Source: Limnohabitans sp. TEGF004
Lineage (GTDB): Bacteria; Pseudomonadota; Gammaproteobacteria; Burkholderiales; Burkholderiaceae_C
Direction of reading: 5' to 3'
DNA: 64,000 bases
Assembly (NCBI RefSeq): GCF_027924965.1
Contig: NZ_AP027056.1
Span: 930,001 to 994,000, forward strand
The notes under the pieces: model-generated
The model's input: only the letters and a program-made list of their open reading frames with translations
Database searches by the model: none
What the model was told of the DNA's origin: nothing
Made by a program: the position numbers and the translations under genes
Part shown: positions 19,145 to 44,645 of the stretch, in pieces
Layout: each line of letters begins with the position of its first letter
Numbering within the stretch: position 1 is the stretch's first letter

Positions 19145-19170
19145 TATCGATGACTTTGAAAGCTTGTTCC

Positions 19171-20166: not shown

Positions 20167-20188
20167 TTGAAGACACAAGAGGAGCAAC

Positions 20189-21117: not shown

Positions 21118-21118
<1 letters not shown>
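20189..21118 (+). CDS. ligI: 2-pyrone-4,6-dicarboxylate hydrolase LigI
   Basis: Opens the PDC lactone to 4-oxalomesaconate/4-carboxy-2-hydroxymuconate. The protein is an amidohydrolase-superfamily enzyme of 309 residues that is metal-independent in the characterised LigI. Active-site motifs: VDAHCHVFGPG (His31, His33), VVDHMGRPD, and WGTDWPHPN with the catalytic Asp. The N-terminal GWMDWYTGPSKPKFKLPAGAVDAHCH is typical of LigI. An AGAGGAGC ribosome-binding site precedes the ATG. The stop TAA overlaps the ligA ATG by one base (TAATG), implying translational coupling. Confidence 0.95.
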
Positions 21119-22436
<1,318 letters not shown>

Positions 22437-22448
22437 GAGGTAAATCAC

Positions 22449-24480: not shown

Positions 24481-24572
24481 GGGGTTTCTCTGTGTGAGTT
24501 AAAGATCAGAGCTGGACTGTATTTGGGTGTCGCCTAATTTCAACTTCAACCGAGCGTAGCCTGACCGAATGG

Positions 24573-24588
24573 CGGACAATATTGTCCG
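24573..24588. promoter_or_regulatory. Perfect 16-bp palindrome, likely IclR operator
   Basis: CGGACAATATTGTCCG is a perfect palindrome between the TRAP receptor gene (start 24480) and the iclR gene. It overlaps the upstream ATG at 24569, which argues that translation starts at 24605. It is probably bound by the adjacent IclR protein. Confidence 0.65.
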
Positions 24589-24604
24589 AAAGGCGGTGAA
24601 AACC

Positions 24605-25414
24605 ATGGTTTCTCCTAATGCGTCTGCGTTGGTCTCAAAATCATCCAGCAAAGAATTCCCCATCGACTCTGGCGACTTGATTGCGGGGGTAGGGCGTGCG
24701 TTGGCCGTCATCGAAGCCTTCAACGATGAATATGGTCGCATGACGGTGTCGCAAGTGGCTGAACGCACAGGCATTCCGCGGACCGCTGCGCGACGCTATT
24801 TACTCAACCTCTGCCACTTTGGCTATGGCGACACCGATGGCAAGTTTTATTGGCTCACGCCGCGTGTGCTCCGATTGGGTCAAGGCTATTTGGATGGCGC
24901 ACGTTTGCCGCGTTTGGTGCAACCGTTTATCCAGCGCTTGGCGATGTCGTCGGGCGAGACGGTCAATGTGTCTGTGTTAGATGGTCATGAGCTTGTGTAT
25001 GTCGCACGTAGCAATAGCCCAAGAGTCGTGTCGATTGGGTTCTATGCCGGTGCTCGTGTGCCTGCGCATGTGGTGGGGCCGGGGCCTGCTATTTTGTCGA
25101 CGTTGAGTGATGTCGAGTTGAAAACATGGATTGCCGCCCATGAGTTTTCTACTTTCAACAGTAATGCCGTGCTCACGCCCAAGAAGTTTGAAAAGATGGT
25201 GCTCCATGCGCGCAAAGCCAATTACTGCATTTCGGTCGGCAACTTGGATCAGGGCCTCACCGGTGTAGCAGTTCCGCTGAGAGACCGCCATGGTGAATGC
25301 AAGGCCGCATTGAGCATGACCTTGCAATCCACCATTTGGAACGACGCGTTGATTGTGGACAAACTACTGCCACTGATCATTGAGACATCTCAAGTGCTCA
25401 GGGCCGTGATTTGA
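24605..25414 (+). CDS. IclR-family regulator (PcaU/PobR-like)
   Basis: IclR-type regulator, about 269 residues from the ATG at 24605. The longer start at 24569 runs through the operator palindrome. The winged helix covers the stretch MTVSQVAERTGIPRTAARRYLLNLCHFGY, and WLTPRVLRLGQGYLDGARLPRLVQPFIQRLA is the linker and the start of the effector domain. RTAARRYLLTL-type recognition helices are typical of the PcaU/PobR/PcaR branch, whose effectors are aromatic or hydroaromatic acids. The third IclR protein (32329-33111) shares this recognition helix almost exactly, so these two are close paralogues. It probably controls the divergent TRAP receptor and itself. Confidence 0.88.
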   Translation: MVSPNASALVSKSSSKEFPIDSGDLIAGVGRALAVIEAFNDEYGRMTVSQVAERTGIPRTAARRYLLNLCHFGYGDTDGKFYWLTPRVLRLGQGYLDGARLPRLVQPFIQRLAMSSGETVNVSVLDGHELVYVARSNSPRVVSIGFYAGARVPAHVVGPGPAILSTLSDVELKTWIAAHEFSTFNSNAVLTPKKFEKMVLHARKANYCISVGNLDQGLTGVAVPLRDRHGECKAALSMTLQSTIWNDALIVDKLLPLIIETSQVLRAVI

Positions 25415-25418
25415 TGTT

Positions 25419-27188
25419 TCACAGCTGGCGTGCGCGTGCCACGGCGTGCTTGGCCGCCAAGTAACCAAAGGTCACGCCAGGCCCAATGGTGATCCCCGGC
25501 GCTGGGTAAATGCCACCCATGATGGAGTGCATGTCGTTACCCGCCGCGTAAAGGCCGTCAATCGCCACGCCTTGTGTGTTGAGCACACGTGCATCGCCAT
25601 CGGTGACCAAGCCTGTGGCTGCACCAATGTCACCGGGGTAGAGCGCCACTGCGTAGAACGGGCCTTCGCGCAACGCGCCCAAGCACGGGTTGGGGCCGTG
25701 CCATGTGGCATCGCCATTGGCGCGTTGGTAGTCGGTGGTGCCGCGTTGGAAATCTTCATCCACACCTTTGTCGGCAAACACATTGAAGCGTTCGACGGTG
25801 GCTTGCAGTTTGTCTGCGGGCACATTCAGTTGTTGCGCCAACTCGGCCAAGGTGTTGCCTTGTTTCAAATAGCCATCGGCCAAGAATGGGGCTAAGCCTT
25901 TGCCGCCCGGGCGAACCATGCCGATGCCGTAGCGCTTCAAGGCGCCTGCATCACACACCAACCACGACGGCACACTGGGCGTGGTTGCGTGGTGGGCTTG
26001 CATGGCAATGCCAAACAAGTGGTACGAGGTGGATTCGTTCAGGTAGCGTTGGCCTTGGCTGTCTACGGTGAGCATGCCGGGCTTGCCGCGGTCCATCACA
26101 AAGTGTGGGAAGACGGCGGTGCTGCCATCGGCGCGTTGACGTGTGGACACAGGCGCCCAAAATGCGTGGCTCAAACCACCGCTGCCCAGTTGACCACCCG
26201 CTTGCAAAGCCAAGTCTTGCGCCTTGCCTGTGTGGCCGGGGCCTGCGGGGCACCATGCTTCTTTGGCGCCGGGCAACATGTCTGCACGGCGTGTGGCGTG
26301 ACGGTTGAAACCCCCGCTGGCCATGACCACGCCGCCTTTGCTGCGCACCGTGCGTTTGACCACGCTGCCATCGGGCAAGGTTTGTTGCAGAGCGACGCCT
26401 TGAATGGCGTTGCCGTCTTGCAGCAGTTGTGTGGCTTCGGTGTTTGTCACCAACAGGCCTTGGCGTTGGATGTAGCTGTAGAGCATGCGCGCAATCATGG
26501 CGTTGCCCATGACCAAGCGCGTGCTGCGTGGGTGCAGTAGTTTGTCGAGGAAATGACGCACGATGATGCGAACGCTGTAGCTGAACGATTTCCACGTCTC
26601 TGTCAAACGCAGCAAATGGAAGATGTCATCGCGGTCCACCATCATGCCGCCGAGCACGGTGAACTCAGGGATGGGGTTGCGCACGAGCGGCAAGTTGGGG
26701 CCGAGCAATTTGCCATCAAAGGGTTGCGGCTCAATCGCGCGACCGCGCAGCACTGAGCCTTCGAGTTCAGACAAATAGTCGGGATGCAACATGCGCACTT
26801 GGAATTGCAGCGCACTGTTGGCTTCGAGTTTGGCAATGGCGTGTGGGCCGTTGTCGATGAAGGCTTGGCGCAACTTGGGGTCGGAGCGTTCGCCGACGGC
26901 GAGGTTCAAAAACGTGGCCACGCGTTCAGGTGTGTCGTCTGGGTTGACTTCCAAGCCACGCTTGGTACCGGGCACCCACGTGGTGGCTGCCGACAACGCG
27001 GTGGTACCACCCACATGGGCCATGCGTTCGACCAACAACACGCGTGCGCCATCAATCGCAGCATTGAGTGCTGCTGAGAAACCTGCGCCGCCAGAACCAA
27101 TCACCACCAAATCCACGGTGTCGTGGTCTTTGAGTTGCGAGAGGTCAGTGCTGATGCGTTGATGAATGGGATACAAAGCGTCGCTCAT
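25419..27188 (-). CDS. 3-ketosteroid-delta1-dehydrogenase-like FAD oxidoreductase
   Basis: FAD-dependent flavoprotein, 589 residues. The dinucleotide fold is VVIGSGGAGFSAALNAA (GxGxxG at 31-36), and ERMAHVGGTTALSAATTWVPG follows. The C-terminal signature GNDMHSIMGGIYPAPGITIGPGVTFGYLAAKHA matches ketosteroid dehydrogenases, including the catalytic Tyr and Gly around IYPAPG. The family also includes 4-oxocyclohexanecarboxylate desaturases that aromatise ring ketones. The stop lies 5 bp from the convergent iclR stop. The aroE-like gene ends 4 bp upstream, so both are one transcript. The steroid substrate is unlikely given the context; a cyclic keto acid is my inference. Confidence 0.85.
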   Translation of the reverse strand: MSDALYPIHQRISTDLSQLKDHDTVDLVVIGSGGAGFSAALNAAIDGARVLLVERMAHVGGTTALSAATTWVPGTKRGLEVNPDDTPERVATFLNLAVGERSDPKLRQAFIDNGPHAIAKLEANSALQFQVRMLHPDYLSELEGSVLRGRAIEPQPFDGKLLGPNLPLVRNPIPEFTVLGGMMVDRDDIFHLLRLTETWKSFSYSVRIIVRHFLDKLLHPRSTRLVMGNAMIARMLYSYIQRQGLLVTNTEATQLLQDGNAIQGVALQQTLPDGSVVKRTVRSKGGVVMASGGFNRHATRRADMLPGAKEAWCPAGPGHTGKAQDLALQAGGQLGSGGLSHAFWAPVSTRQRADGSTAVFPHFVMDRGKPGMLTVDSQGQRYLNESTSYHLFGIAMQAHHATTPSVPSWLVCDAGALKRYGIGMVRPGGKGLAPFLADGYLKQGNTLAELAQQLNVPADKLQATVERFNVFADKGVDEDFQRGTTDYQRANGDATWHGPNPCLGALREGPFYAVALYPGDIGAATGLVTDGDARVLNTQGVAIDGLYAAGNDMHSIMGGIYPAPGITIGPGVTFGYLAAKHAVARARQL

Positions 27189-27191
27189 GGC

Positions 27192-28004
27192 TCACACCTC
27201 CAACAAGAAGTTGACCATCAACTCACGCACTTGCGCGAACATGTCGGCGCCTGTCACGGTCTTGCAACCCTTGGCACGCGCTGCCGCAATCAAGGGCGTG
27301 ATGGCGGGCGCGGTGATGACGCAGCCGACAAACATGTCGCCATGAATTTTGGTGATGTCAATCGGTGTGGGGTCGGCTTCTTTCATGCCGATGGGCGTGG
27401 CGTTGACGGCGACATCAAAGCCTGTGGGGTCGGGGCTACCAAGTGTGAACTTTTCAAGATGGGTGACTTTGCCGAGCTTCAAGCTGTTGAGGCGATCAAT
27501 CAGTGACTGACGACGTTGGTCATCTGGGTCGTGAATGGCCAACTCACTCACGCCCGCCAACACCAAGCTGTGCGCGATGGCGGAGCCTGCGCCGCCTGCG
27601 CCCACCAGCAAAGCACGTTTGTTTTTCAGCACGCAGCCGTTTTTCTCCATGGCGCGCACATAGCCCAAACCGTCGAACATGTCCCCGTGCCAGCGGCCTT
27701 GTGTGTCGCGACGCACGGTGTTGACCGTGCCCAAAAAGGCGGCGCGTTCAGACAGCACATCGCAAAACGCAGTGCACGCAAATTTGTGCGGCACGGTGAC
27801 GATGAGGCCGTCGATGTTTTGCGCGCGTTGGGTGCCGGCCCACCAGTCGGTCAAGTCAGCGGGGGCAACGTGGGCGGGGACGCAGATGGCGTCGCGGCCA
27901 TGCGACTCAAAAGCTTGGGTCACGCCAAAAGGTGATTTCACTTGGGCAATGGGGTCGCCCACAATGACGTGAACGCGTGTGGCGCCGCTGTAGTTTTCAA
28001 GCAT
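27192..28004 (-). CDS. Shikimate/quinate dehydrogenase-like protein (AroE family, catabolic type)
   Basis: AroE-fold dehydrogenase, 270 residues. The catalytic Lys is in DGLIVTVPHKFA and the Asp in GDMFDG, which replaces the biosynthetic NTDG. The N-terminal binding motif reads VKSP where biosynthetic AroE has SKSP. The nucleotide loop is GAGGAGSA, and the next strand ends in an acidic residue (IHDPDDQ) where NADP-dependent AroE has an NRT motif, so NAD is likely preferred. These features favour a catabolic dehydrogenase of a hydroaromatic acid over aromatic biosynthesis. It is the first gene of a two-gene operon with the KstD-like flavoprotein and is divergent from the second iclR. Confidence 0.82.
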   Translation of the reverse strand: MLENYSGATRVHVIVGDPIAQVKSPFGVTQAFESHGRDAICVPAHVAPADLTDWWAGTQRAQNIDGLIVTVPHKFACTAFCDVLSERAAFLGTVNTVRRDTQGRWHGDMFDGLGYVRAMEKNGCVLKNKRALLVGAGGAGSAIAHSLVLAGVSELAIHDPDDQRRQSLIDRLNSLKLGKVTHLEKFTLGSPDPTGFDVAVNATPIGMKEADPTPIDITKIHGDMFVGCVITAPAITPLIAAARAKGCKTVTGADMFAQVRELMVNFLLEV

Positions 28005-28061
28005 GGTGATTCAAAGTGAAGTGGATGAATGTGGCGCAGTTTATCCAAAAATGGAATTACG

Positions 28062-28074
28062 TTCAACTTTTGAA
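28062..28074. promoter_or_regulatory. Candidate IclR operator (TTCAA-N3-TTGAA)
   Basis: The inverted repeat TTCAA-CTT-TTGAA lies between divergent aroE-like (start 28004) and iclR (start 28129). A near repeat, TCAAATTCA, follows at once. The position between divergent promoters suits a shared operator. Confidence 0.4.
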
Positions 28075-28128
28075 TCAAATTCATTTTCCGTGATAAAGTT
28101 CGGCCAACATCCATTTCCACACAGCACT

Positions 28129-28944
28129 ATGAGCGGCGTACTTGAAAGAACTTTGGGCATCTTGGAGCTCTTGTCTGAACAAGGGCAGGGCGTCGAGCTG
28201 GCTGTGTTGGCCGACAAGCTCAACATGCCCAAGAGCGCCGCGCACCGCCTGTTGGTCGACCTGGTGCGCTTTGGTTATGTGCGCCAAACACGCGACATGG
28301 GCGAGTATGTGTTGACCACCAAGCTCGTCTCGTTGGGTTTGAGCTACCTCAGCAAAACAGGCGTCATTGATGTGGCCCAGCCGCTGCTCGACCGCCTGGC
28401 CGAACAAACCGGTGAGCTGGTGCGTTTGTCGGTGGTCGATGGTGACCGCTTGACATGGGTTGCCCGCGCCCAAGGCGCTCGCCAAGGCCTGCGCTACGAC
28501 CCCGACATGGGCAGCATTGCCCGCTTGAGCTGTTCGTCGTCTGGCTTGGCTTGGTTGTCCACCATGAAGGATGACGATGCTTTGGCTTTGGTGTCACAAC
28601 AAGGCTTGGGTTCACCGCAAGATTTCGGCCCCAACGCACCCAAGAGTTTGAAAGCTTTCCTGAAGGTCTTGCAAGACACCCGCAAACAAGGCTTTAGCTT
28701 GACCGAAGAAACCTACACCGCAGGGCTCAACGCCATTGCCGCACCTGTGGGGTTGGCAGGGCAGTTGCCCATGGGCACCATCAGTGTGGCGGGCCCTTCG
28801 GCGCGTTTGACGCGTGAGCGCATGTTGGCATTGGCACCTGATTTGTTGTCATGTGCGGCGCAATTGGCAGCGGCCAGCGGCGCATCGCCCATGTTGGCGC
28901 GTGGCACCAGCCATGTGCGTTTGCAACCCATTTACGCCGCTTGA
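28129..28944 (+). CDS. IclR-family regulator
   Basis: IclR-type regulator, 271 residues from the ATG at 28129; a longer frame from 28003 runs through the divergent promoter and is rejected. The DNA-binding domain spans about residues 1-65 (RTLGILELLSEQGQGVELAVLADKLNMPKSAAHRLLVDLVRFGYV). The GAF-like effector domain contains LVRLSVVDGDRLTWVARAQGARQGLRYDP. It is less similar to the other two IclR proteins here. The FAD-NIPSNAP gene starts 19 bp downstream, so they may be cotranscribed. It probably regulates both that gene and the divergent aroE/flavoprotein pair. Confidence 0.88.
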   Translation: MSGVLERTLGILELLSEQGQGVELAVLADKLNMPKSAAHRLLVDLVRFGYVRQTRDMGEYVLTTKLVSLGLSYLSKTGVIDVAQPLLDRLAEQTGELVRLSVVDGDRLTWVARAQGARQGLRYDPDMGSIARLSCSSSGLAWLSTMKDDDALALVSQQGLGSPQDFGPNAPKSLKAFLKVLQDTRKQGFSLTEETYTAGLNAIAAPVGLAGQLPMGTISVAGPSARLTRERMLALAPDLLSCAAQLAAASGASPMLARGTSHVRLQPIYAA

Positions 28945-28963
28945 TTGCGTTGGATACGTCACG

Positions 28964-31366
28964 ATGACTACCCCATCACTTGACACTGCTCAACCCAAAG
29001 CGTGGGATTGCGATTTGCTGGTGGTGGGCTCCGGTGCCGGTGCGTTATCTACCGCCGTGACGGCGGCACACCTTGGCCTCAAAGTCATCGTGGTGGAAAA
29101 AGATGCGCACTACGGCGGCACCACCGCATGGTCGGGGGGCTGGATGTGGATTCCACGCAATCCACTGGCTATTCAAGCGGGCATCACCGAGCCGATTGAA
29201 AAACCACTGTTGTATTTGCGTCATGAGTTGGGCGAGCAGTTTGATGAAGCACGTGCGCGCACGTTCCTCACGCACGGCCCACGTATGGTGCGCTTCTTTC
29301 AAGAACACACCGCCTTGCAGTTCATCGATGGCAACTTGATTCCAGATTTCCATGGCAAGACTGAGGACGCCGCATTAGGTGGCCGGTCGGTCTGCGCCGC
29401 GCCGTTCAATGGTCGCTTGTTGGGCAAGCATGTGAAGCAGCTCAAAACGCCGTTGTATGAGATGACCTTCCTCGGCATGGGCATTGCCTCGGGGGCTGAC
29501 ATTCGTCACTTCTTCCATGCTTTGCGTTCATGGGGCTCGTTCTTCCATGTGGCCAAGCGCGTCACGCGTCATGTGTTTGATTTGGCGATGTATGGACGTG
29601 GCATGCAGTTGGTCAACGGCAATGCTTTGGTGGCCGCTTTGGCCAAGTCGGCATTCGATGCGGGCGTGGACATTCGCGTGAACAGCCCTGCCGTGCGTTT
29701 GATCACTGAAGGTGACAACGGTTCGCAAAAAGTGCGTGGCGCCGTGGTGATGCACAACGGCGTTGAGCAAACCATTCGCGCCAAGCGCGGTGTGATGTTG
29801 GCCACGGGGGGCTTTCCACACGACCCACAGCGCAAGAGCCAACTGCTGCCACACGATCCCACGGGCGAACAACATTTCTCTGCCGCCTCGCGCGGCAACA
29901 CGGGCGATGGTTTGCGCTTGGGCGAATCGGTGGGTGCGGTGGTGGCGAACGATTTGAAACATGCGGCAGCGATGGCGCCTGTGTCTTTGGTGCCACGTGC
30001 CGATGGAACAATTGCACACTTCCCTCATTTGATTGAACGCGGCAAGCCTGGCCTCATTGCCGTCACGCGCTTTGGCAAACGCTTTGTGAACGAGGCCGAC
30101 TCGTACCACGACTTCATGCAAGGTTTGATTCAAGCGCTTCCTGAAGGTGAGCCTGTGCAAGCCTGGTTGGTGGTGGACCACTGCTTCATCCGTCGTTGGG
30201 GTTTGGGCGCCGTCAAACCTGCACCCGTTCCCATGCACAGCATGTTGGCCAATGGTTACTTGAAACGTGGCAACACCTTGGCTGAGTTGGCGGAGGTGTG
30301 TGGCATCAACGCCGTGTCGTTGCAAAACACCGTGGCGCGCTACAACACCCAAGCAGACATCGGTTACGACGGTGAATTTGGCAAAGGCCAAACCGCTTAC
30401 AACCGCGTGCAAGGCGATGCCACACACGAAGGCCGCAACCCCAACATGGCGCCCATTCAAGACGGCCCGTTTTACGCGGTGCGCATCGTGGCTGGCAGCT
30501 TGGGCACGTTTGCCGGTTTGCGCTGCAACGAACACGCGCAAGTGCTCAACGCGCAAGGCCAGCCCATCGACGGTTTGTACGCCGGTGGCAACGACCTCTC
30601 TAGTGTGATGGGCGGCAACTACCCGAGTGGCGGCATCACCCTTGGCCCCGCCATGACCTTTGGTTATTTGGCCGCGCATCACGCGGCTCGCTTGTCACCT
30701 GACTTTGCATCTTCTGAACATCCATTTTTGAAAAGGACTTCCCCCATGTATTACGAACTCGCCACCATGACGCTGCCTTTTGGCACCGCTGCTCAAGCCG
30801 CAGCTAACGTGCAAACTTTCGCTGCGCAAGGCCAAGGTGAATTGCTGGGCTGCTGGTTCACCGACATCGGTGTGCTCAACCAAATGATTGTGTTGCGTGG
30901 CTTTGATGACTTGGCCACTTTGCAAGCCGAACGCAACCGCACACAACACAACGCTAGCCCGTTTGGTTGTGGCGACATCTTTCAAAGCTTGGAGCAACAC
31001 AGCTACCAAGGCTTCCCTTGGATGAAGCCTGTGCGCCCGAGCGCTGAGAGTGGCATCAACGGACCCGTGTATGAAATCCGCACCTACGGGATCAAACCCG
31101 GTGGCGTGCAACCCACGATTGATTTGTGGGAGCAAGCCATTCCCGCGCGCGACAAAATTTCGCCCTGCGTGGTGGCGATGGTCGCTTTGGATGGTCCGCT
31201 GCGCTTCACCAACATTTGGGCTTACCCCACACTCGACGCACGAAGCAAAGCGCGCGCGGATGCTGTGGCCCAAGGCATCTGGCCACCCAAAGGCGGCCCT
31301 GCCAACTTGACCACCAACATGGTGTCCACCATCGCCATGCCCACTGCGGTTTCGCCATTGAAATAA
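28964..31366 (+). CDS. KstD-like FAD oxidoreductase fused to a NIPSNAP domain
   Basis: An in-frame fusion of 800 residues from the ATG at 28964. Residues 1-585 are a ketosteroid-dehydrogenase-like flavoprotein: LLVVGSGAGALSTAV FAD motif, YGGTTAWSGGWMWIP, and C-terminal GGNDLSSVMGGNYPSGGITLGPAMTFGY with the catalytic Tyr. Residues 595-800 form a NIPSNAP-family domain, two ferredoxin-like repeats beginning MYYELATMTLPFG and EIRTYGIKPGG. The join (SSEHPFLKRTSPM) reads through what looks like an old spacer with AAAAGGAC and an ATG at 30746. Either the stop between two genes was lost, or NIPSNAP is also made from an internal start. Substrate unknown; a paralogue of the flavoprotein at 25419. Confidence 0.82.
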   Translation: MTTPSLDTAQPKAWDCDLLVVGSGAGALSTAVTAAHLGLKVIVVEKDAHYGGTTAWSGGWMWIPRNPLAIQAGITEPIEKPLLYLRHELGEQFDEARARTFLTHGPRMVRFFQEHTALQFIDGNLIPDFHGKTEDAALGGRSVCAAPFNGRLLGKHVKQLKTPLYEMTFLGMGIASGADIRHFFHALRSWGSFFHVAKRVTRHVFDLAMYGRGMQLVNGNALVAALAKSAFDAGVDIRVNSPAVRLITEGDNGSQKVRGAVVMHNGVEQTIRAKRGVMLATGGFPHDPQRKSQLLPHDPTGEQHFSAASRGNTGDGLRLGESVGAVVANDLKHAAAMAPVSLVPRADGTIAHFPHLIERGKPGLIAVTRFGKRFVNEADSYHDFMQGLIQALPEGEPVQAWLVVDHCFIRRWGLGAVKPAPVPMHSMLANGYLKRGNTLAELAEVCGINAVSLQNTVARYNTQADIGYDGEFGKGQTAYNRVQGDATHEGRNPNMAPIQDGPFYAVRIVAGSLGTFAGLRCNEHAQVLNAQGQPIDGLYAGGNDLSSVMGGNYPSGGITLGPAMTFGYLAAHHAARLSPDFASSEHPFLKRTSPMYYELATMTLPFGTAAQAAANVQTFAAQGQGELLGCWFTDIGVLNQMIVLRGFDDLATLQAERNRTQHNASPFGCGDIFQSLEQHSYQGFPWMKPVRPSAESGINGPVYEIRTYGIKPGGVQPTIDLWEQAIPARDKISPCVVAMVALDGPLRFTNIWAYPTLDARSKARADAVAQGIWPPKGGPANLTTNMVSTIAMPTAVSPLK

Positions 31367-31385
31367 ATTGTCAAGGCGGCATACC

Positions 31386-32195
31386 ATGCGTACTTATTCG
31401 CTCGCATACCTCACGGCCAATGCGTCGACCGTGCCGCAAGCCATTGGCATTGCGGCGAAGTTGGGCTATGCCTATGTGGGTTTGCGTGTGCAACCCAACG
31501 GACCCGGTGCACCCTTTCAAACCTTGATTGGCGATGTTGCTGTGTTGCGCGAAACCCAAGCGGTAATGCGTGACACCGGCGTGGGGGTGTATGACTTAGA
31601 AATCATCCGCATTGGTGAACAGTTCAAAGTGGCAGACCATGCCGCGTTGATGGACATCGGCCAAACCTTAGGCGCCAAAGCGGTGTTGATTGCCGCAGAC
31701 GACGCCAATGAATCACGTTTGGCCGACAACTACGCTGCGCTTTGTGATGCCATGCGCCCCTACGGCTTGACCGCCGATTTGGAGTTCATGCCATGGACCG
31801 CCGTGAAAGACGCCAAGTCCGCCATGCGCGTGGTTGAGTTGGCAGGACGCCCTAACAACGCCGGCATTCTGGTAGACGCTTTGCACTTTGGTCGTTCCAC
31901 CACAAGCTTGCAAGACATCGCAGCCATTCCACGCGAGTGGTTGCACTATGCGCAGATGTGCGATGCACAAGCAGGTTTGAACTTCACGACAGAAGAGCTG
32001 ATTCACACCGCAAGACAAGAACGCCTCTTGCCAGGTGAGGGCAATATTGACGTGACAGGTTTGTTTGCCACTTTGCCCCAAGACCTCCCCGTGAGCGTAG
32101 AGATCGTGAACCTAGAACGATCAAAACCCATGGGCGACAAAGCATGGGCCGAACTGTGCCTCAATGCAACTAAGAAGGCTTTAGGCGATGCCTGA
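31386..32195 (+). CDS. Sugar phosphate isomerase/epimerase-like TIM barrel (DSD-like metal site)
   Basis: Xylose-isomerase-like TIM barrel, 269 residues from the ATG at 31386 (a TTG at 31368 is an alternative). Candidate metal ligands are Glu133 (DLEFMPW), Asp164 and His167 (ILVDALHFG), Gln190 and Glu239 (SVEIVN). They are spaced closely like those of the dehydroshikimate dehydratase at 46910 (Glu138, Asp169, His172, Gln195, Glu249). This family covers many isomerases, epimerases and dehydratases, so the reaction is not certain. It lies 19 bp after the FAD-NIPSNAP gene, in the same direction. A dehydratase or isomerase acting on a hydroaromatic ring is my inference from context. Confidence 0.8.
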   Translation: MRTYSLAYLTANASTVPQAIGIAAKLGYAYVGLRVQPNGPGAPFQTLIGDVAVLRETQAVMRDTGVGVYDLEIIRIGEQFKVADHAALMDIGQTLGAKAVLIAADDANESRLADNYAALCDAMRPYGLTADLEFMPWTAVKDAKSAMRVVELAGRPNNAGILVDALHFGRSTTSLQDIAAIPREWLHYAQMCDAQAGLNFTTEELIHTARQERLLPGEGNIDVTGLFATLPQDLPVSVEIVNLERSKPMGDKAWAELCLNATKKALGDA

Positions 32196-32222
32196 ATCAG
32201 CACGCCACGTTCACAACAGTCG

Positions 32223-32308
32223 CCAAGTTGGGCTGCCTGTGCGCGCAGCAAGCGACATTCTGAGCGAAGCGAAGAGGAGCTGCTGTGCGCACAGGCAGCC
32301 CAACTTGG
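32223..32308. repeat. 28-bp inverted repeat forming a long hairpin
   Basis: Arms 32223-32250 and 32281-32308 are inverse complements with a single mismatch; the outer 22 bp are perfect. The left arm starts CCAAGTTGGGCTGCCTGTGC. The 30-base loop is purine-rich and contains repeated GCGAAG. It lies between convergent genes and has no T-run, so it is not a standard terminator. No second copy is obvious in the window. Confidence 0.9.
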
Positions 32309-32328
32309 TCATCACCAAAACCGTAACG

Positions 32329-33111
32329 TCAAATCAACGGGCGCAAACTCTGCGCCACTTCACGCAATACAGGCAACACGCGGTTCACGGCTTCCTTGGA
32401 GGTCTCATGCTGAATGGGCATGCTCACCGTCAAAGCGCCTTGCACATTCCCTTTGTGGTCACGCAAGGGCACGGCCACACCGCGGTACGCCAAGTCGAGT
32501 TGCTGCTCGGACAAGGCCCAGTCTTGCGCGCGAATGCGGGCCAGCTCGGTGCGCATGCGTTTGGGGTCGGTGATGGTGTGCGAGGTGAAGGCTTTGAGTT
32601 CGTGGTTGGCCAACCACGCATCCGACTCTTCCTCACCCAAGAGTGCGAGCAACAACACACCCGCGCTAGTCAAGTGACACGGCACACGCGCACCCAGCGC
32701 GAAGCTGGTGTTCATGCTGCGGTTTTGACCGTTGCGCGCGATGTAGACCAAGTCGTAGCCGTCGAGGACGGCGACAAACGAAATTTCTTGTGTGCCCATC
32801 GCCAAGCGTTGCAACGAGGGTTGCACGATGCGCGGCAAGCGGGCCGACTCCAGGTACGACTGACCCAGTCGCATCACCTTTGGGGTGAGCCAAAACAGCT
32901 TGCCGTCGGTGGTGACAAAACCCAAATGCAAGAGCGTCAGCAAATACCGACGTGCCGCTGTGCGGGTCAGGCCGCAGCGTTGGGCAGCTTGGGTGGCGGT
33001 CAAGCGCGGGTTGTGTTCGTCAAAGGTTTGGAGCATGGCGAGGCCTTTGTCCAGACCGGCGATCCAGTCCTTCTTGTCCATGCCCGCGGCGTGCGTCAAA
33101 AGTGTGTTCAT
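32329..33111 (-). CDS. IclR-family regulator (PcaU/PobR-like)
   Basis: IclR-type regulator, 260 residues from the ATG at 33111 (MNTLLTHAAGMDKKDW); a frame running up to 33516 crosses the livK promoter and start and is rejected. The winged helix contains LTATQAAQRCGLTRTAARRYLLTLLHLGFVTTDGKLFWLTPKVMRLGQSYLESARLPRIV, nearly the same as in the regulator at 24605. Effectors of this branch are commonly aromatic or hydroaromatic acids. It is divergent from livK, and a 15-bp direct repeat pair lies in the gap. It therefore probably governs the Liv-type transporter operon. Confidence 0.9.
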   Translation of the reverse strand: MNTLLTHAAGMDKKDWIAGLDKGLAMLQTFDEHNPRLTATQAAQRCGLTRTAARRYLLTLLHLGFVTTDGKLFWLTPKVMRLGQSYLESARLPRIVQPSLQRLAMGTQEISFVAVLDGYDLVYIARNGQNRSMNTSFALGARVPCHLTSAGVLLLALLGEEESDAWLANHELKAFTSHTITDPKRMRTELARIRAQDWALSEQQLDLAYRGVAVPLRDHKGNVQGALTVSMPIQHETSKEAVNRVLPVLREVAQSLRPLI

Positions 33112-33139
33112 AGGGGGTGCAGGGGGAAACCCGTGATGC

Positions 33140-33175
33140 GTTCGATGATCGCACAAAAACGTTCGTTTATCGCTC
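33140..33175. promoter_or_regulatory. Candidate IclR operator: tandem 15-bp direct repeats
   Basis: GTTCGATGATCGCAC (33140-33154) and GTTCGTTTATCGCTC (33161-33175) share 12 of 15 bases with 21-bp periodicity, about two helix turns. AAACG-TT-CGTTT at 33157-33168 adds an inverted repeat. PcaU and PobR are known to bind mixed palindrome plus direct-repeat arrays like this. Confidence 0.55.
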
Positions 33176-33316
33176 AATCTTGGGCAAATGTTCCGACAGA
33201 TCAAGCTTTTCCAATTAAATTGCACACATCTAAAACCAATCGATGGTGTGCCTTCGATTTCATCACCCCGAGCCGCCAGACATTGGCTCAATTTCAAACC
33301 CAAAGAGGAGACATCC

Positions 33317-34462
33317 ATGAATAAACGTTCCACCTTGAAAGCTGTTGCCGCTGCCGCAATTTTTGCGTTGGCTGGCGTCGCGCATGCCCAGCAAACTGTG
33401 AAGATTGCCAACATCGTTGAGCTGTCTGGCCCAGGCACCACAGCTGGCACGGTGTTTAAGAATGGCGTGGAGTTGGCGGTCAAAGAGATCAACGACAACG
33501 GCGGCATCTTGGGCAAAAAGATTGAGAGCTACACCGTTGACACGCAAACCAATCCTGGCGTGGCCAAGGGTTTGACTCAAAAGGCAGTGGATGACGGCGT
33601 GTTTGCCATTTTTGGCCCCGTCTACTCAGGCTCCATCATGGTGTCCATGGCTGAATCTAAACGTGGCGAAGTGCCTAACTTCACAGGCGGCGAAGCTGCT
33701 TCGATCACTGCGCAAGGCAACCCTTATGTGTTCCGCACTGCGTTCGGCCAAAGCACCTCATTCCCCAAGCTGGCCAAGTTCATCAACACCAAAGCCAAAA
33801 CATTGGCTGTGATTTATGTGAACAACGACTTCGGCAAAGGCGGTCGTGACACACTGAGCAAGTTGCTGGCAGATGGCCCTACCAAAATCGTGGCCGACAT
33901 TTCAACAGACGCAGGTCAAGTTGACTTTTCTGCCGCCGTGTTGAAAGCCAAGCAAACCAACGCTGACGCGATCTTTGCCTACACCAACGAAGAAGAGTCT
34001 GCACGTTTGTTGCGCGAATTGAAGAAGCAAGGCTGGACCAAGCCCGTGATCGGTGAGACCACATTAACAGGTCAAAAAGTGATCGAGTTGGCAGGCGATG
34101 CCGCCAACGGTGCGATGGCCCACGTGGGTTTGACCGTGGATGCACCGAACCCAGAAATGTTGAAGTTCAAAGCCAAGTACTACCAAGCCTACGGCAGCAT
34201 CTCTGACCACAACGGCATCAAGGGTTACACCGGCGTGTACGTGCTCAAAGCTGCGATCGAAAAAGTGGGCAAGCTCGACCGCAAGGCTGTGGCACAAGCA
34301 CTGCACGGCATCAGCATCAGCGCCAAGAAGCACCCAGGCGTGATCATGGATGTGAGCTTTGATGACAAGGGTGACCTTGACCGCGAAAGCTTCTTGATCG
34401 AAGTGAAAAATGGCCGTCAAGTGGTGACAGCCACTTTGCCCGCTTTGAACGCCAAGAAGTAA
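33317..34462 (+). CDS. Liv-type ABC transporter substrate-binding protein
   Basis: Periplasmic receptor of the branched-chain amino acid/amide family (LivK-like), 381 residues from the ATG at 33317 with AGAGGAG upstream. A signal peptide covers 1-24 (LKAVAAAAIFALAGVAHA). The mature protein starts QQTVKIANIVELSGPGTTAG, the type I binding fold. VYSGSIMVSMAE and YTNEEESARLL are family segments. A terminator-like hairpin follows, then livHMGF, so the binding protein is likely made in excess. In related bacteria such transporters often import aromatic acids, and the IclR and catabolic neighbours suggest the same here. Ligand not determined. Confidence 0.9.
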   Translation: MNKRSTLKAVAAAAIFALAGVAHAQQTVKIANIVELSGPGTTAGTVFKNGVELAVKEINDNGGILGKKIESYTVDTQTNPGVAKGLTQKAVDDGVFAIFGPVYSGSIMVSMAESKRGEVPNFTGGEAASITAQGNPYVFRTAFGQSTSFPKLAKFINTKAKTLAVIYVNNDFGKGGRDTLSKLLADGPTKIVADISTDAGQVDFSAAVLKAKQTNADAIFAYTNEEESARLLRELKKQGWTKPVIGETTLTGQKVIELAGDAANGAMAHVGLTVDAPNPEMLKFKAKYYQAYGSISDHNGIKGYTGVYVLKAAIEKVGKLDRKAVAQALHGISISAKKHPGVIMDVSFDDKGDLDRESFLIEVKNGRQVVTATLPALNAKK

Positions 34463-34472
34463 TTAGAGAAAC

Positions 34473-34504
34473 AAGGCACGCCTGCGGGCGTGCCTTTCTT
34501 TTTT
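34473..34504 (+). terminator. Attenuating terminator between livK-like gene and livH
   Basis: The perfect stem AAGGCACGCC/GGCGTGCCTT with a TGCG loop is followed by TTCTTTTTTC. It lies only 14 bp before livH, so partial read-through would set the receptor-to-permease ratio. Confidence 0.8.
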
Positions 34505-34517
34505 CAAGCGAATTGAC

Positions 34518-35393
34518 ATGACCGACTTCCTACAACTCTTTTTCAGTGGCCTCGCCACCGGCAGCATTTATGCGCTGGCGGCCTTGGGCTTTACCTTGCT
34601 TTGGCAAGCTTCGGGCACCATCAACTTCGCACAAGGCGAGTTTGTGATGCTGCCGGCTTTCATGATGCTGGGCTTCATGGCCGCAGGCTTCCCTTTGATG
34701 TTGAGCTTTGCCGCGAGTTGTGTGCTGTCGGTCTTTGTGCTGGGCTGGTTGTTCAAGCGCGGCGTGGTGGACCCACTCTTCAAGTTCGGCATGATGCCCA
34801 TCGTGGTGGCGACCATTGGTCTGTCCATCGCCATGCGCAATGCGGTGCGCGCAGGTTACAGCGCTGAGCCGCATCCATTTCCCAATCTATTTCCAGATGA
34901 GGTGTACAACATTGCCGGTGTGACCATTTCGGCCACCGACATTGGCACCTTTGTGTTTGCCATTGCACTCGTGTTGATCACACAAGCTTTCTTGGCCAAG
35001 ACCGTCACCGGTCGTGCCATGCAAGCGGTGGCACAAAACACCGAGAGCGCTTCGGTGTTGGGCATCAACGTGCCCCGCATGATTTTTTACACCTTCGCCA
35101 TCAACGCGGTGCTGGCAGCAGCCGCTGCGATTTTGGTGACGCCGACGTATCTGGCCAAGTTCGACATGGGCGCAGCTTTGGGTACGAAGGCTTTCTTCGC
35201 TGCCATCATTGGTGGCTTCAACAACTCACGCGGTGCGTTGTTGGGGGGTGTGATTGTGGGCGTGTGCGAAAACTTGGCTGCAGCCTACATTTCGCCGGCC
35301 TACAAAGACGCGGTGGCGTTGATCATTTTCATGGTCGTGATTTTGTTCAAGCCACAAGGCTTGCTCGGTAAAAAAGTGGAGCGCAAAGTATGA
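34518..35393 (+). CDS. livH: ABC transporter permease LivH
   Basis: Inner-membrane permease of the Liv/HAAT family, 291 residues with about eight hydrophobic segments. The start MTDFLQLFFSGLATGSIYALAALGFTLLW is the typical LivH N-terminus. The conserved EAA-like loop TVTGRAMQAVAQNTESASVLGINV contacts the ATPases. GTKAFFAAIIGGFNNSRGALLGG is another family hallmark. Its stop overlaps livM by four bases (ATGA). It is part of livK-H-M-G-F under the divergent IclR regulator. Confidence 0.94.
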   Translation: MTDFLQLFFSGLATGSIYALAALGFTLLWQASGTINFAQGEFVMLPAFMMLGFMAAGFPLMLSFAASCVLSVFVLGWLFKRGVVDPLFKFGMMPIVVATIGLSIAMRNAVRAGYSAEPHPFPNLFPDEVYNIAGVTISATDIGTFVFAIALVLITQAFLAKTVTGRAMQAVAQNTESASVLGINVPRMIFYTFAINAVLAAAAAILVTPTYLAKFDMGAALGTKAFFAAIIGGFNNSRGALLGGVIVGVCENLAAAYISPAYKDAVALIIFMVVILFKPQGLLGKKVERKV

Positions 35394-36373
35394 AGAAGCT
35401 CGCAATTCTTGCCGGCCTCTTGGGGCTGTTGGCCTGTATTTTTGTGCCCACGCTGCTCAAAAATCACGGCATTTATTTGTTCACCTACTGGCTGATTTAC
35501 GTCATCGCCACCATGGGCTTGAACCTCACCATCGGTTATGCCGGTCAAAAGTCACTCGGCCATGCCGCGTTCTTTGGCATTGGTGCCTACACCGTGGCGG
35601 TGATGATGCAAGCGGGTTACAGCTTTTGGCTCGGTATGCCACTCGCAGCCTTGGGCTGCTTTGTGGTGGGCTTGGCGCTGGGCTTTCCTGCGCTGCGCGT
35701 GCAAACCATTTACTTGGCGTTTGCCACGCTTGGCTTCAACACCGCGGTGTGGTTGGTGATGCGCAACGAAGAGTGGCTCACGGGCGGCACGTTTGGCATC
35801 AACAACATTGCACGTCCTGAAGTTTTTGGCATCAGCTTTGATGGCAACTTGGCTTACTACTACTTGGTGTTGGCGTTTGCCGTGGTGTTGGGTTTGCTTT
35901 TGTGGGGCTTGCTGCATTCGCCATGGGGCAAAGCATTCACCGCCTTGCGTGACAACCCCATCCGTGCGGAAAGCTTGGGCGTGGACATTCGTGGCTACAC
36001 CTTGTTGAGCTTTGCGATTGGCGCGGCCTATGCAGGTATTGCCGGTGGTTTGTTTGGCTCATTGGTGCAGTTCATTGACCCCGCGCCATTCACGGTGGAA
36101 GCGTCCATCATGATGTACCTCATGGTGGTGGTGGGTGGCCCCGGTTATTTCTTGGGCCCCTTGCTGGGTGCTGCAGTGGGTGTGATCTTGCCGGAGTGGT
36201 TGCGCTTTGCGCAGGCCTGGTATTTGTTCGTGTTCGGCACGGCCGTGGTGATGTTGATGATTTGGCTGCCCGACGGTTTGCTGAGCATTCCAGACCGCAT
36301 CCGTGCGAAACGTCAGTCGCGTGAAGCCTCAGCGGCACGTGCGGCTGCAGGCCAATCAGGAGTGAAGGCATGA
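35390..36373 (+). CDS. livM: ABC transporter permease LivM
   Basis: Second permease of the Liv-type transporter, 327 residues with about nine to ten membrane spans. Hallmarks: GLNLTIGYAGQKSLGHAAFFGIGAY, and the coupling loop SPWGKAFTALRDNPIRAESLGVDI. A cytoplasmic Arg/Ala-rich tail ends the protein. It overlaps livH and livG by four bases at each end, so the three are translationally coupled. It works as a heterodimer with LivH. Confidence 0.94.
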   Translation: MKKLAILAGLLGLLACIFVPTLLKNHGIYLFTYWLIYVIATMGLNLTIGYAGQKSLGHAAFFGIGAYTVAVMMQAGYSFWLGMPLAALGCFVVGLALGFPALRVQTIYLAFATLGFNTAVWLVMRNEEWLTGGTFGINNIARPEVFGISFDGNLAYYYLVLAFAVVLGLLLWGLLHSPWGKAFTALRDNPIRAESLGVDIRGYTLLSFAIGAAYAGIAGGLFGSLVQFIDPAPFTVEASIMMYLMVVVGGPGYFLGPLLGAAVGVILPEWLRFAQAWYLFVFGTAVVMLMIWLPDGLLSIPDRIRAKRQSREASAARAAAGQSGVKA

Positions 36374-37128
36374 CGAATTCAAACATTCAACCCGTTCTCA
36401 AAGTCACCGACTTGAAGAAAGCCTATGGCGCGATTCAAGCGGTGGGTGGCGTGTCGTTTGAAGTGCGCCCTGGTGAAATCTTTGGCGTCATTGGCCCCAA
36501 CGGTTCGGGCAAAACCACCTTGTTCAACAGCATGTTGGGTCAAATCACACCGGACACCGGCAAGATCGAACTCAATGGCCAAGACGTGACGCAGTTGGGT
36601 CCTTTGGAGCTCAACCGCTTGGGCGTGGGGCGCACCTTCCAAACCCTGCAAGTGTTTGGCAAGATGACCGTGCGCGACAACTTGATCGTGGCCGCGCAAG
36701 AGCACCAAGGCACCATGTTCAGCCGCATGTTCGCACCCAGCGATTCAGATTTAGGTGCCAAGGCAGATGCCTTGATTGACCAGTTCCATATCAAGCACGT
36801 GGCCGATAAAAAAGCGGGTGAGTTGAGCTACGGTCAACAAAAGCTGGTCGACATTGCCATGGCCTTCATGAGTGAACCCGACTTGGTCTTGCTTGACGAA
36901 CCTTGCGCGGGCGTGAACCCTTCGCTGGTGGGTGGCATCAGCACCTTGCTGAAAGACCTGAACAAAACCCGCAAGGGTAGTTTCGTGGTGATCGAACACA
37001 ACATGGATTTTGTGATGGACCTGTGCCACCGCATCATGGTGATGGTCGAAGGCAAGGTGATGGCCATTGGTACACCGGCCGAGATTCGTGCCAATAAACA
37101 AGTGCTCGACGCCTACTTGGGAAGCTGA
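36370..37128 (+). CDS. livG: ABC transporter ATP-binding protein LivG
   Basis: Cytoplasmic ATPase of the Liv transporter, 252 residues. Walker A is GPNGSGKTT (about 41-49), the signature is LSYGQQKLV (in place of LSGGQQ, usual for LivG), and Walker B is LVLLDEPCAGVNP. The C-terminal VMVEGKVMAIGTPAEI is conserved. Four-base overlap with livM; livF starts 2 bp after its stop. Confidence 0.95.
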   Translation: MTNSNIQPVLKVTDLKKAYGAIQAVGGVSFEVRPGEIFGVIGPNGSGKTTLFNSMLGQITPDTGKIELNGQDVTQLGPLELNRLGVGRTFQTLQVFGKMTVRDNLIVAAQEHQGTMFSRMFAPSDSDLGAKADALIDQFHIKHVADKKAGELSYGQQKLVDIAMAFMSEPDLVLLDEPCAGVNPSLVGGISTLLKDLNKTRKGSFVVIEHNMDFVMDLCHRIMVMVEGKVMAIGTPAEIRANKQVLDAYLGS

Positions 37129-37130
37129 TC

Positions 37131-37892
37131 ATGACAACACATAACAACACAACACCGTGCATCGAATTTGACGATGTGGTGGCAGGCTACAAAGATTTCA
37201 TGATCTTGAACAACCTGTCGTTTTCTGTGCCCAAGGGCTCCATCACCTTGTTGATTGGACCCAACGGCGCTGGCAAGTCGACCGTGCTCAAAACCTTGTT
37301 TGGTTTGCTCACGCCGCGCCAAGGCAAGATTCGTTTGAATGGCGATGACATCACTGGCGCCACACAAAAAGACTTGCTCGCGCGTGGCATTGCCTTTGTG
37401 CCGCAAGGTCGCAATTTGTTTGGTCAACTCTCGGTCTACGAAAACCTAGAGTTGGGCGGCATCACGCTGGGCATGAAGACCACGCACGAGCGCATTCCTG
37501 AAGTGCTGGAATTTTTCCCGCGCGTGAAAGAGCGCATGAACTCCTTGGCATCTTCTCTCTCGGGTGGTGAACAAAAGCAACTTGAAATTGGTCGCGCTTT
37601 GTTGCTGCGTCCCAAAGTTTTGTTGATTGATGAACCCTCGATCGGTTTGTCGCCCATGGTGGTGCAAGACGTGTTCAAGCTCTTGCGCAAGTTGGCTGAC
37701 CAAGGCACCACGGTGCTGATGGTGGAGCAAAACGTGAAGAGTGCGCTCAAGTACTCAGACAACGCGATTGCTTTGGAGTCTGGTCGTTTGGTGCTGTACA
37801 AATCAGCCGCTGAAATTTTGGCTGATCCACAAATGGAACGTTTGTTCTTGGGTGGTGCACACACCACCACGGCAGCAGCAGCGACCGTTTAA
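37131..37892 (+). CDS. livF: ABC transporter ATP-binding protein LivF
   Basis: Second ATPase of the Liv transporter, 253 residues. Walker A is GPNGAGKST, the signature LSGGEQKQLEIGRAL, and Walker B VLLIDEPSIGLSP. GIAFVPQGRNLFGQLSVYENLELGG is the LivF Q-loop region. It pairs with LivG on LivHM. The next gene, a Gfo/Idh oxidoreductase, starts 2 bp after its stop and is probably in the same transcript. Confidence 0.95.
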   Translation: MTTHNNTTPCIEFDDVVAGYKDFMILNNLSFSVPKGSITLLIGPNGAGKSTVLKTLFGLLTPRQGKIRLNGDDITGATQKDLLARGIAFVPQGRNLFGQLSVYENLELGGITLGMKTTHERIPEVLEFFPRVKERMNSLASSLSGGEQKQLEIGRALLLRPKVLLIDEPSIGLSPMVVQDVFKLLRKLADQGTTVLMVEQNVKSALKYSDNAIALESGRLVLYKSAAEILADPQMERLFLGGAHTTTAAAATV

Positions 37893-37894
37893 GC

Positions 37895-38947
37895 ATGCCC
37901 CCAGTGAACATCGCGGTCGCTGGTGCGGGCGTGATTGGTCGCGCTCACATCGCCGTCATTGCGCAATCTTCGCAGTGCCGATTGAGCGCCATTGCCGATC
38001 CGTCTGAGGCTGCGCAAGCCTTGGCTCAAGAGCATGGCGTGCCTTGGTTTGCCACCTTGGACCAACTGCTGGCTGCTGTCTCGCCAGACGGCGTGATTCT
38101 GGCAACACCCAATGCCATGCATGTGCCGCAAGCCCTGCAGTGCATTGCCGCAGGTGTGCCGGTGTTGGTGGAGAAGCCGATCGCACACACCGTGGCCGAT
38201 GCACAAAAGCTGGTGCAAGCCACGCAAGCGCATCAAGCCAAGGTGTTGATCGGTCACCACCGAGCCCACAGCCCCATCATGCGTCAAGCCCAAGCGGTGA
38301 TTGACGAGGGGCGTTTGGGGCAGTTGGTGAGCGTGGTTGGCAGTGCCATGTTTTACAAGCCCGATGACTACTTCACGCAAGCGCCTTGGCGGTGTGAGGT
38401 GGGCGGTGGCCCAATTCTGATCAACCTCATTCACGAGATTCACAACTTGCGCATGTTGTGCGGTGAGATCGCGCAAGTGCAGGCCATGACCTCGAATGCG
38501 GTGCGTGGCTTTGCGGTGGAAGACACGGCATCCATCACGTTCCGTTTTGCATCGGGTGTGTTGGCGTCATTCATGCTCTCCGACACAGCGGCATCGGCGC
38601 AGAGTTGGGAGCAAACCAGCCAAGAGAACAAAGCCTACGCCAGCTATGACGATGAAGACTGTTACGTCATTGCAGGAACGATGGGCAGTTTGTCTGTGCC
38701 CACCATGCGCTTGAAAACCTACGGCAAAGCTGAAGACCGTTCGTGGTTCAAGCCTTACCAAAGTAGCACTGTGGCGTTAGAGCGAGAAGATCCCTTGCGT
38801 TTGCAGATGGACCACTTCATCCGTGTGATCCAAGGTGCGGAAGAACCTCTGGTGAGCGCGCACGACGGCTTGCAAAACTTACGGGTCGTCGAAGCCATTG
38901 CGCAGGCGGCGGCAAATCAGCAAACCGTTCGCTTAAGCGAAACTTGA
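37895..38947 (+). CDS. Gfo/Idh/MocA-family oxidoreductase
   Basis: NAD(P)-dependent dehydrogenase, 350 residues. The Rossmann motif GAGVIGRAHIAVI lies near residue 10, the EKP motif in VPVLVEKPIAHT, and the catalytic-domain HxxxH in INLIHEIHNLRML. Family members oxidise sugars, inositols or related cyclic polyols. It starts 2 bp after livF, so the transporter and enzyme are coexpressed; the imported solute may be its substrate. That would suit a cyclic polyol or hydroaromatic acid, but this is inference. It ends 36 bp before a convergent second Gfo/Idh gene. Confidence 0.85.
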   Translation: MPPVNIAVAGAGVIGRAHIAVIAQSSQCRLSAIADPSEAAQALAQEHGVPWFATLDQLLAAVSPDGVILATPNAMHVPQALQCIAAGVPVLVEKPIAHTVADAQKLVQATQAHQAKVLIGHHRAHSPIMRQAQAVIDEGRLGQLVSVVGSAMFYKPDDYFTQAPWRCEVGGGPILINLIHEIHNLRMLCGEIAQVQAMTSNAVRGFAVEDTASITFRFASGVLASFMLSDTAASAQSWEQTSQENKAYASYDDEDCYVIAGTMGSLSVPTMRLKTYGKAEDRSWFKPYQSSTVALEREDPLRLQMDHFIRVIQGAEEPLVSAHDGLQNLRVVEAIAQAAANQQTVRLSET

Positions 38948-40882: not shown

Positions 40883-40888
40883 TTGATA

Positions 40889-41554: not shown

Positions 41555-41660
41555 CAGGTAGTTGGCTATGCGTGATTTAAATGCGGGTTTTCACTAACAT
41601 GTCACAAAGTAACTGTTTTGTACATTTTGTTTCAACCCATATTCTTTAAGGATCATCCTC

Positions 41661-42191: not shown

Positions 42192-42212
42192 ACCCATCCA
42201 AGGAACAAGACC

Positions 42213-43490: not shown

Positions 43491-43575
43491 TTCTTTTCCA
43501 CTGTCAGCCCGGGTACGCCTGGCAGTGGTTCCCTTGATTCGCGTACGACCGCAAAGTTCTTCAGGAGACACTGAC

Positions 43576-44598: not shown

Positions 44599-44611
44599 TT
44601 GACTTCGTGAT

Positions 44612-44645
44612 GCTTCGCCGCTTGCATGCGGCGAAGCTTTTTTTG
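44612..44645 (+). terminator. Intrinsic terminator after dctP
   Basis: The perfect stem GCTTCGCCGC/GCGGCGAAGC with a seven-base loop is followed by a run of seven or more Ts. It separates the TRAP genes from aroQ, which starts 37 bp later and may depend on read-through. Confidence 0.88.

Follow-up and report, generated by a model that had tools for sequence, protein, structure and literature searches.

A conserved gene set in Limnohabitans sp. TEGF004 as a likely aromatisation unit with a hydroaromatic acid as its hypothetical substrate

We analysed a stretch of 64,000 nucleotides from Limnohabitans sp. TEGF004 (contig NZ_AP027056.1, positions 930,001 to 994,000; hereafter the window, within which all positions are counted), part of a genome of 2.77 Mb in two contigs. 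At 25419-32195 it carries a group of genes, here called the core, which is likely a conserved aromatisation unit with a hypothetical substrate. The core consists of two units that diverge at 28005-28128. The minus-strand unit encodes AroE1 (27192..28004, 270 aa), a protein of the shikimate dehydrogenase (SDH) family (PF08501), and, after a gap of 3 bases, FlavoA (25419..27188, 589 aa), a KstD-like desaturase with flavin adenine dinucleotide (FAD) that has a PF00890 domain and belongs to the PRK12843 group (NF009477, 827 bits versus a cut-off of 758). The plus-strand unit, with gaps of 19 bases, encodes the regulator IclR2 (28129..28944, PF01614/PF09339), a FlavoB-NIPSNAP fusion of 800 aa (28964..31366, ATG at 28964), and TIM1 (31386..32195, 269 aa), a TIM barrel protein of the AP_endonuc_2 type with metal ligands like those of 3-dehydroshikimate dehydratase (DSD). 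FlavoB falls into the PRK06134 group (NF004789, 856 bits versus 747), and the NIPSNAP part matches PF07978 in two stretches. The open reading frame of IclR2 opens at 28003 and its match to relatives starts near 28129, where an ATG is the probable start. We looked for inverted repeats in the interval between AroE1 and IclR2 and found none at the settings used. No 3-dehydroquinate dehydratase is encoded among the core genes, and neither a P450 nor any other hydroxylase was seen there. A first-pass annotation of the sequence had named two KstD-like flavoproteins, an AroE-like enzyme, a TIM barrel, a Liv-type transporter and three IclR regulators; all of these are present, but it overlooked the NIPSNAP part fused to the C-terminus of FlavoB.

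AroE1 fails every AroE equivalog cut-off (best 143.8 versus 252 bits; TIGR00507 138.2 versus 200.2). Its best match in the PDB is the RifI2-type protein 4k28 of Pseudomonas putida (E 6.9e-44), to which it is about one third identical. Both proteins carry the motif QVKSP where AroE has Ser14, a residue that we take to bind the carboxylate. We scanned an AroE1 alignment against one genome per species, which gave at least 182 confirmed relatives. All counts out of 80 loci below refer to the best 80 of these, a selected set viewed in the fetched flanks, several of which are truncated by contig ends; the nearest named relative by AroE1 is Limnohabitans sp. B9-3 (96% identical). Valine occupies the Ser14 position in 79 of the 80 loci, and K74 and D111 are present in all of them. 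By its nearest PDB match and the shared motif AroE1 resembles the RifI2 class, which is a lead to its membership of that class. RifI2, in work by Peek from 2013, is said to have weak activity on shikimate and traces of activity on quinate, and to use NAD (nicotinamide adenine dinucleotide). In AroE1 the second Rossmann strand carries an aspartate (Asp 159) close to its end; an aspartate in this place points to a preference for NAD and suggests NAD as the cofactor of AroE1.

The catalytic residues of KstD1 are Tyr119, Tyr318, Tyr487, and Gly491 (PMC5348764). FlavoA retains all four (Y138, Y389, Y561, G565) and FlavoB three (Y381, Y553, G557), with phenylalanine at the Tyr119 position in all 51 FlavoB relatives aligned. 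Apart from alignment gaps, these residues are invariant: in FlavoA, Y138 is found in 56, Y389 in 57, and Y561 and G565 in 55 of 57 sequences; in FlavoB, Y381 is found in 50, and Y553 and G557 in 49 of 51. A patch of His, Arg, and Lys, at positions 362, 367, and 369 of FlavoA and a candidate site for the carboxylate of a ring acid, is retained in 57/57 FlavoA and 50/51 FlavoB sequences, while the steroid enzyme 7p18 keeps just the Arg. The two flavoproteins share the FAD_binding_2 fold family and most of the catalytic residues with KstD and differ from it in subfamily, in this patch, and in their non-steroid gene context. The organism's own genome contains 16 matches to PF00890, three of them strong. 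FlavoA and FlavoB are two of these; the third comes from an open frame of 599 aa and is possibly a succinate dehydrogenase. When used as queries at E 1e-90, each flavoprotein found itself and the other, and nothing else.

TIM1 residues E133, D164, Q190, and E239 align with residues of 5hmq (QuiC1) that we take to bind the metal, in line with the earlier suggestion of DSD-like metal ligands, and H167 is retained as well. E133 is present in 49 of 49 aligned sequences, D164, H167, and Q190 in 48, and E239 in 47, the exceptions being alignment gaps. The protein lacks the half that resembles 4-hydroxyphenylpyruvate dioxygenase (HPPD) and scores 34.5 bits against the two-domain QuiC equivalog (cut-off 1200); because single-domain DSDs exist, this shortfall is compatible with DSD activity. 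TIM1 is 22% identical to TIM2, a QuiC-like protein encoded in the same window. Its closest fold is Lmo2234, presumably the Listeria QuiC2 dehydratase. The NIPSNAP part, which in the window is the C-terminal portion of FlavoB, was matched in 47 of the 80 loci, sharing an open frame with FlavoB in 18 and lying outside that frame in 29. All 18 fused loci come from Limnohabitans or incompletely named Burkholderiales-type genomes. A protein search with the fused part returned 165 matches, and among the 120 listed PF07978 and PF00890 occurred together in every one. These distributions indicate that the fusion is lineage-specific and that NIPSNAP is a genuine partner. The predicted model of this part had a mean predicted local distance difference test score of 60.6, so the monooxygenase-like double ferredoxin folds that it matched carry no weight here.

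We surveyed 150 genomes of the family, calling relatives of AroE1 at ≥53% identity, of FlavoA at ≥57%, and of FlavoB at ≥58%. AroE1 relatives occurred in 13 genomes, with the next best matches at ≤43%, and FlavoA relatives also in 13 (next best ≤46%). The two sets of genomes are identical, an agreement that would arise about once in 2 x 10^18 were genomes independent, which they are not. The two genes lie ≤112 bases apart in 11 of the 13 genomes; in the remaining two the distances are 1.8 and 6.3 kb. FlavoB relatives were present in 12 of the 13, twice on another contig.

In the wider survey, with FlavoA and FlavoB called at ≥50% identity, FlavoA was found in 54 of the 80 loci, FlavoB in 53, either in 62, and both in 45. 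TIM1 (≥38%) was found in 51, IclR2 (≥45%) in 56, and a Gfo/Idh dehydrogenase (≥38%) in 28. The conserved unit among relatives is FlavoA-AroE1-IclR2-FlavoB-NIPSNAP-TIM1. Among the genera in which the loci lie are Limnohabitans, Hydrogenophaga, Malikia, Rhodoferax, Cupriavidus, Paraburkholderia, Bosea, Rhizobium, and Azospirillum, and the set extends over other Burkholderiales, Rhizobiales, Rhodobacterales, and Azospirillum. The first-pass annotation had proposed a search for the set in other genomes and had regarded a neighbourhood conserved in no relative as fatal to its reading; we found conservation across several orders. A self-contained version on a Limimaricola variabilis plasmid comprises TctC, AroE1, FlavoA, IclR, FlavoB, NIPSNAP, TIM1, TctB, TctA, and Gfo/Idh, and similar versions are present on Paracoccus plasmids. 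AroE1 relatives also occur in another conserved context in eight Bradyrhizobium loci, which have no flavoproteins and adjoin a lytic transglycosylase gene and a flavin-type oxidoreductase gene. The cyo genes of Klebsiella pneumoniae strain 176 have as neighbours an AroE-like gene together with NIPSNAP, Gfo/Idh, and a major facilitator superfamily (MFS) transporter; the flavoprotein matches there are split into several pieces with no gene annotated, and the record is named a plasmid though it is 5.4 Mb long.

In 18 of the 80 loci, genes for an acyl-CoA dehydrogenase and a coenzyme A (CoA) transferase lie close to TIM1. Four genomes were checked for missing flavoproteins, and two had no orthologues. 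Hydrogenophaga IBVHS1 has AroE1, IclR2, and TIM1 beside the acyl-CoA pair, and its genome (completeness not stated) yielded best matches of 42% and 51% to FlavoA and FlavoB. In Thauera phenylacetica, AroE1, TIM1, and IclR2 are accompanied by Tct genes, and its genome (completeness likewise not stated) gave no flavoprotein match at E 1e-60. Hydrogenophaga TGS_PRO26, at first a further candidate, was rejected on finding both flavoproteins elsewhere in the genome (62% and 65%); in Xenophilus L33 each of the two is matched at 53%. From the gene content of IBVHS1 and Thauera, AroE1 and TIM1 thus form the shared remainder. An acyl-CoA dehydrogenase acting at C1-C2, next to a carboxyl thioester, and FlavoA, acting beside a C3 ketone, could form one and the same C1=C2 bond. 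As the gene contents suggest, flavoprotein and CoA-thioester chemistry may replace each other in the desaturation step. In the window's organism itself we rejected a role for either member of the pair: its best matches to the acyl-CoA dehydrogenase are 34-40% identical among 16 hits, and its best match to the CoA transferase is 28% identical.

Tentatively, with a confidence that stops somewhat short of even, we read the core as a catabolic unit that would aromatise a hydroxylated cyclohexanecarboxylic acid whose ring is saturated in part or in full. AroE1, with NAD as its probable cofactor, would oxidise one of the hydroxyls on the ring to a ketone. FlavoA, judging by its retained catalytic residues, would then remove two hydrogens beside the ketone to give a C1=C2 enone of the 3-dehydroshikimate type. 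TIM1, as a putative metal-dependent dehydratase, would remove water to yield protocatechuate. With substrates that have no third hydroxyl, FlavoB and NIPSNAP would instead introduce a double bond on the opposite side of the ketone, followed by tautomerisation to a phenol. Protocatechuate would finally enter the neighbouring LigAB pathway, the presumed sink, whose plus-strand genes at 18266..23405 encode LigK, an amidohydrolase, LigA, LigB, and a LigC-like protein of protocatechuate 4,5-cleavage (TIGR02798, TIGR02792, and NF009903 above cut-off; PF02900, PF07746, PF19858). The steps oxidise, desaturate, and dehydrate had been proposed in the first-pass annotation and fit the retained residues; the substrate is hypothetical, and a phenolic acid is the presumed product for the lig genes.

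Hydroaromatic acids are suggested as the substrate class by three observations: Liv transporters of one family are found both in core operons and in quinate/shikimate-type loci, QuiC-type and LigB genes are enriched in core genomes, and the acyl-CoA pair lies beside TIM1 in some loci. A QuiC-type dehydratase was found in 11 of the 13 core genomes versus 36 of the 137 others (p 5e-5), and LigB at ≥73% identity in 12 of 13 versus 72 of 137 (p 0.007); both tests use counts made by hand and treat genomes as independent, ignoring kinship. The window already has AroE2 and TIM2 in a separate quinate/shikimate-type module, so a function distinct from plain quinate or shikimate use is to be expected of the core. 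The best candidate substrates are dihydroshikimate (3,4,5-trihydroxycyclohexanecarboxylate) and 3,4-dihydroxycyclohexanecarboxylate, which are products of the anaerobic reduction of quinate and shikimate. It is possible, if on balance doubtful, that the core stands for a widespread undescribed route by which aerobes reclaim reduced hydroaromatic acids, using an SDH-family dehydrogenase, a pair of flavin desaturases with NIPSNAP, a DSD-like dehydratase, and in some lineages a CoA-thioester branch. Such a route would give RifI2-type dehydrogenases a physiological role, and it would combine the dehydration strategy known for quinate with the desaturation strategy known for cyclohexanecarboxylate in the use of alicyclic acids from plants and fermentation. 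The proposal also gives a testable substrate class to one SDH class and two families of FAD enzymes, proteins that family libraries name merely shikimate dehydrogenase-like or FAD-dependent oxidoreductase. We found no description of the gene set in the open-licence PubMed Central literature, a corpus outside which most subscription papers lie.

Judged by its sequences, the core is like a hybrid of two known routes and fails the membership tests made for each. In the aerobic cyclohexanecarboxylate (chc) route, hydroxylation, dehydrogenation, and two desaturases lead to 4-hydroxybenzoate (PMC9795900), and the Sinomonas enzymes ChcC1 and ChcC2 are KstD-like flavoproteins that desaturate a ketone formed from a ring alcohol toward a phenolic acid. 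The core shares this logic and differs in adding an SDH-family dehydrogenase, a TIM barrel resembling a dehydratase, and a NIPSNAP partner. With the quinate/shikimate route (quinate dehydrogenase, dehydroquinase, QuiC-type dehydratase) it shares an SDH-family dehydrogenase, a metal TIM barrel, and protocatechuate as the presumed product; it differs in having no dehydroquinase, in having two flavin desaturases, and in the missing HPPD-like half of TIM1.

Several observations weigh against aromatisation of a hydroaromatic acid by the core. The assignment of its enzymes rests on sequence and gene context. A FlavoB orthologue is missing from one of the 13 core genomes; two other genomes have FlavoB relatives (55% and 54%, a small gap to the set at ≥58%) with no orthologues of AroE1 or FlavoA. 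Neither flavoprotein was found (none at ≥38% identity) in the fetched flanks of 18 of the 80 AroE1 loci, eight of them from Bradyrhizobium. The lig genes do not adjoin the core in most relatives, and with AroE2 and the QuiC-like TIM2 in the window TIM1 may have a function other than the dehydration of 3-dehydroshikimate. The fold of TIM1 is equally close to QuiC1 and to IolI, presumably an inosose isomerase, and Sinorhizobium clusters link a FlavoA relative to hydroxyquinol-type genes. These last two points also speak for a different substrate, a cyclitol-like polyol or amino polyol that has no carboxyl and would be converted to a trihydroxybenzene for a hydroxyquinol-type pathway, with the lig neighbours accidental. 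On pRM41A of S. meliloti Rm41, a FlavoA relative (51%) is accompanied by a TIM barrel and NIPSNAP as well as a type II dehydroquinase, a maleylacetate reductase, and an intradiol dioxygenase, and a plasmid cluster of S. americanum resembles this set up to the maleylacetate reductase; Gfo/Idh proteins resembling inositol dehydrogenases also often adjoin the core. However, no AroE1-type gene is annotated in the two Sinorhizobium stretches, whose gene tables are incomplete, and core operons carry carboxylate-type (Tct and tripartite ATP-independent periplasmic, TRAP) and Liv transporters in genomes enriched in QuiC-type genes. We regard the polyol substrate as unlikely.

Distinctly unlikely is a plain Chc-like route, in which oxidation of a mono- or dihydroxycyclohexanecarboxylate would be followed by two desaturations through FlavoA and FlavoB, giving a hydroxybenzoate or protocatechuate, and TIM1 would have a role different from dehydration. 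The two desaturases invariably belong to different types, as they do in the published route (PMC9795900), and the ChcC2 model NF053677 is among their top family matches. Its cut-off of 900 was nevertheless missed (427 and 493 bits), as was the cut-off of 1000 for NF053676, used in the ChcC1/ChcC2 test (292 and 302 bits), and such a route leaves TIM1 with its invariant metal ligands in 51 of 80 loci, and a core in which no hydroxylase was seen, to be accounted for. Formation of gallate, by desaturation of 3-dehydroshikimate through FlavoB or FlavoA and followed by ring opening with a LigB-type dioxygenase, seems to us very unlikely. Chemically, 3-dehydroshikimate shares its enone character with the 3-keto-4-ene steroids used by KstD, and besides LigB the window encodes another class III extradiol dioxygenase of the LigB type, at 50142-50978; that protein falls below the gallate dioxygenase cut-off (283.5 versus 412), and TIM1 and AroE1 would be left without a clear part. 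We give hardly any credence to steroids or other polycyclic ketones as substrates. The closest solved relatives of the flavoproteins are 3-oxosteroid dehydrogenases (7p18, 4c3x, and others), but the equivalog cut-offs were missed by hundreds of bits (NF009478, cut-off 789, FlavoA 424 and FlavoB 427; NF005882, cut-off 788, 386 and 396), and AroE1, TIM1, and carboxylate transporters make up the conserved neighbourhood. We set the steroid reading aside on cut-offs, gene content, and neighbourhood; a genome-wide search for steroid genes was not made.

The genes flanking the core were partly grouped with it in the first-pass annotation, which had placed them in one shared region. The core itself is conserved, but the region is not one system. 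Convergent with FlavoA lies a plus-strand IclR regulator like PcaR, PcaU, and PobR (24569..25414; TIGR02431, 229 bits, under the cut-off of 285). Downstream of TIM1 follow IclR3 on the minus strand (32329..33516, PF01614/PF09339; true start probably downstream, near 33090), which adjoins Liv genes in relatives, and on the plus strand a LivJHMGF-type ATP-binding cassette transporter (33320..37892), with LivG and LivF identified by sequence and order rather than by family search, and the Gfo/Idh/MocA dehydrogenase Gfo1 (37895..38947, PF01408). LivJ is matched at 78-80% in five core operons and at 73-76% next to FlavoA or AroE1 in three further loci. IclR3, Liv, and Gfo/Idh are found in quinate/shikimate operons of relatives as well, and the same Liv family occurs in two quinate/shikimate-type loci. 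One locus, L057, has both contexts, and because its Liv genes continue into AroQ, AroE2, HPPD-N, and TIM2, IclR3, Liv, and Gfo/Idh cannot be assigned to the core alone.

The separate quinate/shikimate-type module of the window (40883..48795, plus strand) encodes a TetR regulator, a TRAP transporter, AroQ, AroE2, an HPPD-N-like protein, TIM2, and an aldo/keto reductase. AroQ, the 3-dehydroquinate dehydratase at 44607-45125, exceeds its cut-off (TIGR01088, 185.6 versus 169.85 bits). The halves of a QuiC-type dehydratase are two genes here (46005-47797), the HPPD-N-like protein and TIM2 matching different parts of the two-domain model. The second LigB-type dioxygenase scores 522 bits against NF009901 (cut-off 290) and has no LigA domain; the gene was read by hand in 10 of the 13 core genomes, a number that has no comparison count and was not used as evidence. 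Further along, at 55605-57803, the window encodes a YcaO protein that has an OsmC-like domain at its N-terminus.

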